64,000 nucleotides of DNA, from NCBI GenBank assembly GCA_019685555.1, contig JABFQN010000003.1, positions 1 through 64,000 on the forward strand. The letters run 5' to 3'. Below are positions 42,130 to 43,265 of this stretch, in pieces; within the stretch, counting starts at the first letter, position 1, and every line of letters begins with the position of its first letter. Source of the stretch: Candidatus Bathyarchaeota archaeon A05DMB-3. Its GTDB lineage: Archaea; Thermoproteota; Bathyarchaeia; Bathyarchaeales; Bathycorpusculaceae. A model generated the notes under the pieces. That model was given only the letters and a program-made list of their open reading frames with translations. It was not told the DNA's origin and ran no database searches. Position numbers and translations under genes: made by a program.

Positions 42130-42630
42130 ATTTGCCCAACACTCAACATTCCAAACGTTTCGGTTAAAGTGGAAACCACGAGTATAGTAGGAGTTAAGCT
42201 TGATGTCAAAGGCGGAGCTGGAGCCGTAAACTTTGATGTTAAGGCGAAACTTGAAGAGAAGGAGAGGAGAAGCCAGACGGTTGTGGTGGGCTTCAGTCTT
42301 CAGTTAACAACAAAACCAAGCATTGTCAAATTCGAAATTGAGGGAACCGCGACCCTCACGGGCAAAGACACCGAAATAAACAAAATGCTGGAAATAGACC
42401 CTGAAACAAAAGTGCCATACATTTTCCAGAAGGTTTACCAAAACACTTTCACAGCCATGTACCTGCTCTCAACAATTTTAAACGTTCCTCCGCCACCCAT
42501 CGACCTGCTGCTCTTCCGGAGAGGAGAAGGAGCATTAGCAGAACATGTGACACTGGAACCGGAAACAGCTGAAACTGTTGAGGCTACTGCTGAAGAAAAA
42601 CTAGCTGACGAATCTGAAACTGGAACATAG
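42130..42630 (+). CDS. Conserved archaeal protein of unknown function; probable ATT start
   Basis: The first canonical start is GTG 42169. However, the frame stays open upstream and reads LNIPNVSVKVETTSIVGVK, which looks like one continuous beta-strand protein. GAGGA (42118-42122) lies seven bases before an ATT (42130) that would start it. From ATT the product has 166 residues: a beta-rich N-terminal part (about 15-75), a helix, PPPP near 120, and an acidic Thr/Glu tail. A SecB-like or other chaperone-like fold is conceivable but not shown. A one-base change in TTGCCC would also repair the start. Confidence 0.6.
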   Translation: MCPTLNIPNVSVKVETTSIVGVKLDVKGGAGAVNFDVKAKLEEKERRSQTVVVGFSLQLTTKPSIVKFEIEGTATLTGKDTEINKMLEIDPETKVPYIFQKVYQNTFTAMYLLSTILNVPPPPIDLLLFRRGEGALAEHVTLEPETAETVEATAEEKLADESETGT

Positions 42631-42654: not shown

Positions 42655-42665
42655 AATATTTATTA
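42655..42665 (+). promoter_or_regulatory. TATA element of queT
   Basis: AATATTTATTA lies about 25 bases before the GGGTTTT arm of the folded leader. The transcript would start close to 42680, exactly where the structured RNA begins. This matches the placement expected for a leader-encoded regulatory RNA. Confidence 0.5.
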
Positions 42666-42680
42666 GCTTCTTGTTATGAT

Positions 42681-42750
42681 GGGTTTTCTGTTGGCGGGTG
42701 AGTGGGACCTCCCACCCGTTCCGCCATAAAAACCCCGGTGTAGGGAGGTG
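42681..42750 (+). promoter_or_regulatory. Structured queT leader with anti-Shine-Dalgarno, candidate riboswitch
   Basis: Seen directly: GGGTTTT (42681-42687) pairs with AAAACCC (42729-42735); GGCGG (42693-42697) with CCGCC (42721-42725); GTGGG (42702-42706) with CCCAC (42711-42715). The hairpin element ACCTCCC (42707-42713) is perfectly complementary to the ribosome-binding site GGGAGGT (42743-42749). An alternative pairing CGGGTG/CACCCG (42695-42700 with 42713-42718) competes with the inner stem. Mutually exclusive stems plus a hidden ribosome-binding site are typical of translational riboswitches. Bacterial queT genes carry preQ1 riboswitches; the class here cannot be told. Confidence 0.55.
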
Positions 42751-42755
42751 AAAAA

Positions 42756-43265
42756 ACGAAATTTGAAAGCAGAGACTTGGCTTTAACCGCGGTTTTTGCA
42801 GCACTTTACGCTGCCGGAGTGGTTTTCCTAGCGCCTATAAGCTTTGGGATTTATCAAGTGAGGGTGGCTGACTCGTTGTTGCCGTTGTCGGTGATATTCG
42901 GTATGCCTGTTGCCGTAGGGGCGAGTCTTGGTTGTTTGATTGCGAATTTTTATGGTGGTCTAGGCGTCGTCGACATCATTGGCGGAGCAGCTGCAAACTT
43001 TGTGGCGTGCACTTTGGCTTGGTATGTTGGCAGAGGTGGCTTTACCCGTAGGTTTTTAGGATGTTTTGTTGAAACAGCAGTTATAACAATAATTGTTGGA
43101 GGCTACTTGGCGCTCATATTTGATGTTCCAGTGGAGCTTGGGTTGTTTGGCGTTTTTGTCGGTTCCATTGTGGCAATCAACATCTTAGGCTTTGCACTTT
43201 TAGAAGGGTTGCATCGAAGTGGCATAGGAAAAAGCTATGCCAAAAGGGATTCGAGGTCTACATGA
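42756..43265 (+). CDS. queT: QueT-family transporter for a 7-deazaguanine precursor; probable ACG start
   Basis: This 169-residue membrane protein of the QueT family (about five helices) takes up queuosine or archaeosine precursors. ARVADSLLPLS-like sequence (VRVADSLLPLSV near 37) and GASLGCLIANFYGG are typical. The first canonical start is TTG 42777. However, seven more in-frame codons begin at ACG 42756, five bases after GGAGGTG, and read KFESRD, the usual N terminus. So initiation at ACG, or a T-to-C change in ATG, is likely. The 3' end overlaps convergent polB by eight bases. Confidence 0.85.
   Translation, partial: TKFESRDLALTAVFAALYAAGVVFLAPISFGIYQVRVADSLLPLSVIFGMPVAVGASLGCLIANFYGGLGVVDIIGGAAANFVACTLAWYVGRGGFTRRFLGCFVETAVITIIVGGYLALIFDVPVELGLFGVFVGSIVAINILGFALLEGLHRSGIGKSYAKRDSRST

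Follow-up and report, generated by a model that had tools for sequence, protein, structure and literature searches.

To our knowledge, natural archaeal riboswitches are very few, and all three known classes of preQ1 riboswitch have been described from bacteria only. These classes are the closest described systems to the element reported here. PreQ1-I (RF00522) is an H-type P1/P2 pseudoknot with an A-rich third loop and the Shine-Dalgarno (SD) sequence in or near P2; types I and II carry UC or AC before the P1 3' strand (PMC11625349). It controls queT, queCDEF and yhhQ, the last reportedly through a type III preQ1-I riboswitch (PMC11625349, PMC10622847). PreQ1-II (RF01054, COG4708/queT) is an HLout pseudoknot of helices P1-P4, found in Bacillota only (PMC11625349). 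A hairpin precedes its SD strand, and the SD is fully paired to a loop anti-SD inside the aptamer, giving translational OFF control. PreQ1-III (RF02680) also precedes queT; it comprises about 100 nt and five helices, with a separate, distant expression platform whose anti-SD forms a second pseudoknot by docking with the SD, and has been reported in Ruminococcaceae and in metagenomes (PMC11625349). Archaea receive no mention in the 2024 review on the preQ1 family (PMC11625349). In 2021, the fluoride (crcB) riboswitch of Thermococcus was described as the sole natural riboswitch of archaea to have been determined by experiment (PMC8241225).

The window (the whole 64,000-nucleotide stretch of DNA analysed) belongs to a bathyarchaeal genome. 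The gene of interest encodes a QueT transporter (PF06177, E 1.5e-26). An upstream ORF ends at 42630, and the element, with a core at 42693-42750, lies in the gap before the queT start. In archaea, transcription usually starts about 22-30 nt from the TATA box. The distance from P1 at which TATA-like motifs are most frequent in the 161 related copies is 30-39 nt on the 5' side, with A-rich positions immediately before them, so that the transcript probably begins within a few bases of P1. The listed queT ORF opens with TTG at 42777, the next start codon in frame, 27 nt from the SD; the start adopted in Table 1 lies 6 nt from it. This codon is ACG here, and TTG, GTG or ATG occupies the same place in relatives; either an ACG start or an error in the assembly would account for it.

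Table 1. Predicted features of the queT promoter, leader and gene (window coordinates).
Feature	Position	Strand	Basis
TATA box TTTATTAG of queT promoter	42659..42666	+	Motif peak in 161 related copies
Probable transcription start, nearly at P1	42686..42690	+	Usual TATA spacing and motif peak
P1 5' strand GGCGG	42693..42697	+	P1 covariation
Start of L1, GUG, nearly invariant, candidate pocket bases	42698..42700	+	96-100% conserved
5' strand GUGGG of inner hairpin, state with SD free	42702..42706	+	Inner-hairpin covariation
Anti-SD ACCUCCC, P2 5' strand, overlapping inner hairpin 3' strand	42707..42713	+	Covaries with SD
Inner hairpin 3' strand CCCAC	42711..42715	+	Inner-hairpin covariation
L2 CCGUU, almost unvarying, possible pocket bases	42716..42720	+	94-100% conserved
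P1 3' strand CCGCC	42721..42725	+	P1 covariation
L3 AAAAACCCCGG	42728..42738	+	A 42728, A 42730-42732 and CCC 42734-42736 conserved 99-100%
Shine-Dalgarno GGGAGGU, P2 3' strand	42743..42749	+	Covaries with anti-SD
queT	42756..43265	+	Start placed at ACG 42756; PF06177 match, leaders of relatives

The core is about 58 nt long and reads GGCGG GUGAGUGGGACCUCCCACCCGUU CCGCC AUAAAAACCCCGGUGUAGGGAGGUG. In the queT leaders of close relatives it is nearly letter-for-letter identical, and the bases farther upstream diverge. The UU before the P1 3' strand (42719-42720) is 94% and 100% conserved. P1 is joined to the SD strand by a 17-nt linker (42726-42742), which keeps its sequence but has no conserved hairpin. 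A structured 5' leader of this kind, conserved, covarying and carrying conserved unpaired bases, is what is generally expected of a riboswitch. Two other readings of the leader were rejected: a short leader peptide, since 2-nt indels among relatives shift the frame, and the use of the L3 CCCC as an SD-masking strand, as drawn in the energy fold. The CCC stays fixed where the SD changes, and pairing with the SD is therefore not what maintains it.

Three helices are supported by covariation, in shuffle tests whose statistics still contain shared ancestry. P1 shows 27 two-sided changes where shuffles yield 4.4 (0/500; 82 sequences), with 99.3% of cells paired and rival registers nowhere near; pair 1 changes from G-C to A-U, C-G or U-A and pair 5 from G-C to C-G, among others. 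For P2, the pairing score of cognate strands is 16.97 against 15.67 +/- 0.18 when shuffled (0/200; 150 sequences), and in the 17 copies without GGAGG in the SD it is 16.4 against 13.3 (0/1000). Anti-SD and SD change jointly, as in TCATCTCC/GGAGATGA, ACATCTC/GAGATGT, CCCTCT/AGAGGG, GCCCCCT/AGGGGGC and TTTCCGAC/GTCGGAAA, and Asgard copies pair CCTCGCA with TGCGAGG and CCTCTCA with TGAGAGG. Their lengths match too: both are long in 62 copies, both short in 50, and mixed in 18. The inner hairpin GTGGG/CCCAC has 13 two-sided changes against 2.1 in shuffles (0/500), a count favoured by an alignment model that already contained the hairpin. It excludes full P2, because both use the CCC of the anti-SD. 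Comparison thus gives the anti-SD two covarying partners, GUGGG and the SD GGGAGGU, which indicates a two-state design. The calculated stability is -17.7 kcal/mol for P1 with the inner hairpin and -11.2 kcal/mol for P2. The folding energy of the leader (z -1.76; 12/200 shuffles equally good) would not alone have revealed the element.

Much of the first-pass annotation agrees with this anatomy. It had named the gene as queT, noticed the exact 7-base complement of the SD, placed it within an inner hairpin and proposed that the queT leaders of related archaea be compared for compensatory changes; P1, P2 and the inner hairpin all show them. Its start of the leader at 42655 falls instead in the promoter. 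Of the three nested stems it drew, the inner hairpin stands; the outer ones (e.g. GGGTTTT, 42681-42687) are unconserved and probably untranscribed, and the conserved outer stem is GGCGG/CCGCC. A competing stem CGGGTG/CACCCG can be drawn, but it has 0 compensatory changes in 82 sequences, does no better than shuffles and is broken by GGCGC..GCGCC variants. The switch would not involve that stem, and is better described as P1 with the SD pseudoknot against the inner hairpin.

The element is widely distributed. Searches used a covariance model for the element (R1) and a second model built from diverse copies (R2). R1 finds it in 195/257 genomes of the window's archaeal class (E <= 0.1; best about 1e-27) and in 82/398 genomes sampled from the phylum (E <= 0.01). 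With R2 it is present in 13/228 genomes of the Asgard phylum, and QueT lies downstream in 12 of these 13. A pattern scan of GTDB genomes names Bathyarchaeota, Methanomethylicota, Nitrososphaerota/Thaumarchaeota bins, Odinarchaeia, another Asgard bin and Njordarchaeum as carriers. In the phylum to which a Methanospirillum bin belongs, which offers no positive control, R2 found none in 247 genomes. No bacterial copy was confirmed: pattern matches failed the model, apart from two whose scores, near 20 bits, are what chance would give. Two elements occur in each of the genomes G006, G013 and G055; in G006 (G006:C1:411954 and 1304497) both precede QueT paralogues, and QueC comes after one of these.

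The controlled genes share a single metabolic theme, as would those of a riboswitch. QueT is encoded downstream in 144 of 152 distinct copies that exceed about 23 bits and have sufficient flank, and in one further copy (L110) seen with longer flank; about 95% of confirmed copies precede queT, sometimes as queT-queC. In the most informative exceptions the element is followed by QueE and then a Gat-QueC fusion (L197), by QueE (L178), or by an ArcS alpha-like and then a RaSEA-like gene (L193, an element that R1 scores weakly, at 23.8 bits, and R2 more clearly, at E 1.3e-6). The gene names in these three loci are by best family, because the scores fall under the NCBI equivalog cut-offs. QueC exceeds its cut-off in 11/61 relatives and, where compared, lies close behind the element and QueT (e.g. 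G006, G013, G068).

The genome of the window encodes an archaeosine TGT that carries a DUF5591 domain. None of its proteins passes the cut-off for QueC, an absence that is not certain in a MAG 96% complete. Together these suggest that the organism probably salvages a 7-deazaguanine base by import and makes archaeosine from it. The base inserted by archaeal TGT is preQ0, which is for this reason the favoured ligand. Descriptions of bacterial QueT name either preQ1 or preQ1/preQ0 as what it transports (PMC11625349, PMC12519234), on which account preQ1 is a possible ligand as well. The genes alone point to the ligand, and preQ1, archaeosine base or another relative would fit them almost as well as preQ0.

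In four further loci (L066, L072, L099, L297) the element is followed by a membrane protein of about 230 aa, and in one copy then by a QueC-like gene. The L066 protein has no Pfam or NCBIfam match, and a profile comparison of L066, L099 and L297 with QueT gave no support for identity (probability 10.8%). It is possibly another 7-deazaguanine transporter.

We consider it quite likely that the element acts in cis as a riboswitch of the translational OFF type, with a 7-deazaguanine base (preQ0 being the likeliest) as its ligand, and that it represents a new archaeal structural class. Covariation supports the pseudoknot and the inner hairpin, around which we infer a ligand, a pocket and a direction of control. 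The mechanism may be outlined as follows. (i) The message would begin near the element, with P1 formed in practically all copies. (ii) When ligand is scarce, the inner hairpin would take up the anti-SD, leaving the SD free for ribosomes to start. (iii) When ligand is present, it would sit between P1 and P2, touching GUG of L1, CCGUU of L2 and AAA-CCC of L3. (iv) P1 and P2 would then stack as an H-type pseudoknot in which the SD is hidden. (v) A plentiful base would thereby reduce translation of the genes for its uptake or synthesis. The wider proposal, of an archaeal-born preQ0 riboswitch class serving archaeosine and common to TACK and Asgard archaea, is in our judgement close to evenly balanced, leaning slightly against. 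As such a class would be shared by both groups, it may go back to an ancestor common to them, on the lineage that led to eukaryotes.

The leader might instead belong to one of the bacterial preQ1 families (I, II or III), inherited by archaea or transferred into them. It precedes the same gene, its SD lies within a pseudoknot, and it combines an H-type topology like that of preQ1-I with an anti-SD:SD helix like that of preQ1-II (PMC11625349). Membership is nevertheless unlikely, as the UU before the P1 3' strand departs from preQ1-I types I and II, the linker lacks the preQ1-II hairpin, and the element is far smaller than preQ1-III. No Rfam family was matched in the window, none of the preQ1 families was found in the leader at a relaxed threshold, and RF00522 did not match the element, nor any Rfam family its divergent copies; the positive control, the yhhQ leader of E. 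coli, gave no match either, so these negatives say little. The search for preQ1-I, II and III put forward in the first-pass annotation therefore has a negative but weak outcome. Of its alternatives of a new element or a rare transfer, the former fits what was found; the latter finds no support, given the element's spread through TACK and Asgard archaea and the absence of any confirmed copy among the bacterial matches of the scan. The underlying suggestion of an archaeal SD-sequestering element for a 7-deazaguanine, new and not a transferred bacterial preQ1 riboswitch, is strongly supported by covariation, archaeal breadth and gene context.

A regulatory protein responding to 7-deazaguanines or to tRNA state could also bind the leader, so that the RNA would not be the direct sensor. 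Archaea possess RNA-binding regulators, and the neighbouring genes do not show whether the sensor is RNA or protein. However, the invariant unpaired bases at the pseudoknot junction, kept over TACK and Asgard archaea, are riboswitch-like, the element precedes the genes of one pathway in differing operons, and no regulator gene was seen to accompany it in the loci read; we regard protein sensing as very unlikely. Passive SD masking or an RNA thermometer without ligand, for which the stable stems might speak, is scarcely credible, since it needs pairing rather than invariant unpaired GUG, CCGUU and AAA-CCC, and since the element tracks the 7-deazaguanine pathway across different genes.

A second kind of leader also precedes queT. 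It consists of GGTAG-TTTCCGNNNNNAAC-CTACC followed by AAAAAACC(C)GG, and all 6 exact-pattern matches lie before queT: L324 (G090), L326 (G026), L327 (G043), L329 (G160), L333 (G174) and L014 (G097). G174 contains both kinds of leader. The second kind looks like preQ1-I type II, with AC before the P1 3' strand, a loop CCG and a tail CGG; it has no Rfam match. In G089, a short degenerate form of the first kind, GGGCGGGATGAGTTCCGCCCTAACCCC (L013, 1372-1419; 13.9 bits), lacks the anti-SD insert and lies about 110 nt upstream of queT; masking of the SD could fall there to a CAGCCTC/GAGGCTG hairpin farther downstream.

A widespread and compact archaeal class with a covarying two-state anatomy would show that archaea have metabolite-sensing RNAs of their own. 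With it, sensing of preQ0 and of preQ1 could be compared directly, and uncultured archaea that salvage or make 7-deazaguanines could be recognised. The minimal RNA, about 65 nt, is small enough for immediate binding tests.

No published account of such an archaeal element was found; because the literature searched leaves out most subscription journals and preprints, its novelty is likely rather than proven. The Thermococcus fluoride riboswitch is likewise natural to archaea and thought to act on translation, but it has another ligand and another fold, and it is shared with bacteria. Like preQ1-III, the archaeal element stands before queT and docks an anti-SD with the SD; it is half that size, and its core itself contains the SD. 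With preQ1-I it has in common the H-type pseudoknot, both helices of which covary, the A-rich third loop, the position of the SD and queT as a target. It differs in its longer core, in a long L1 bearing a competing hairpin, and in keeping GUG/CCGUU/AAA-CCC rather than the preQ1-I consensus. With preQ1-II it shares the gene and the full pairing of the SD to a loop anti-SD; translational OFF control, shown there, is proposed here, and a simple H-type knot, confined to archaea as far as found, replaces the HLout fold. The archaeal element would work like preQ1-II, with the SD inside the knot, and has a topology like that of preQ1-I, but it lacks defining features of each.
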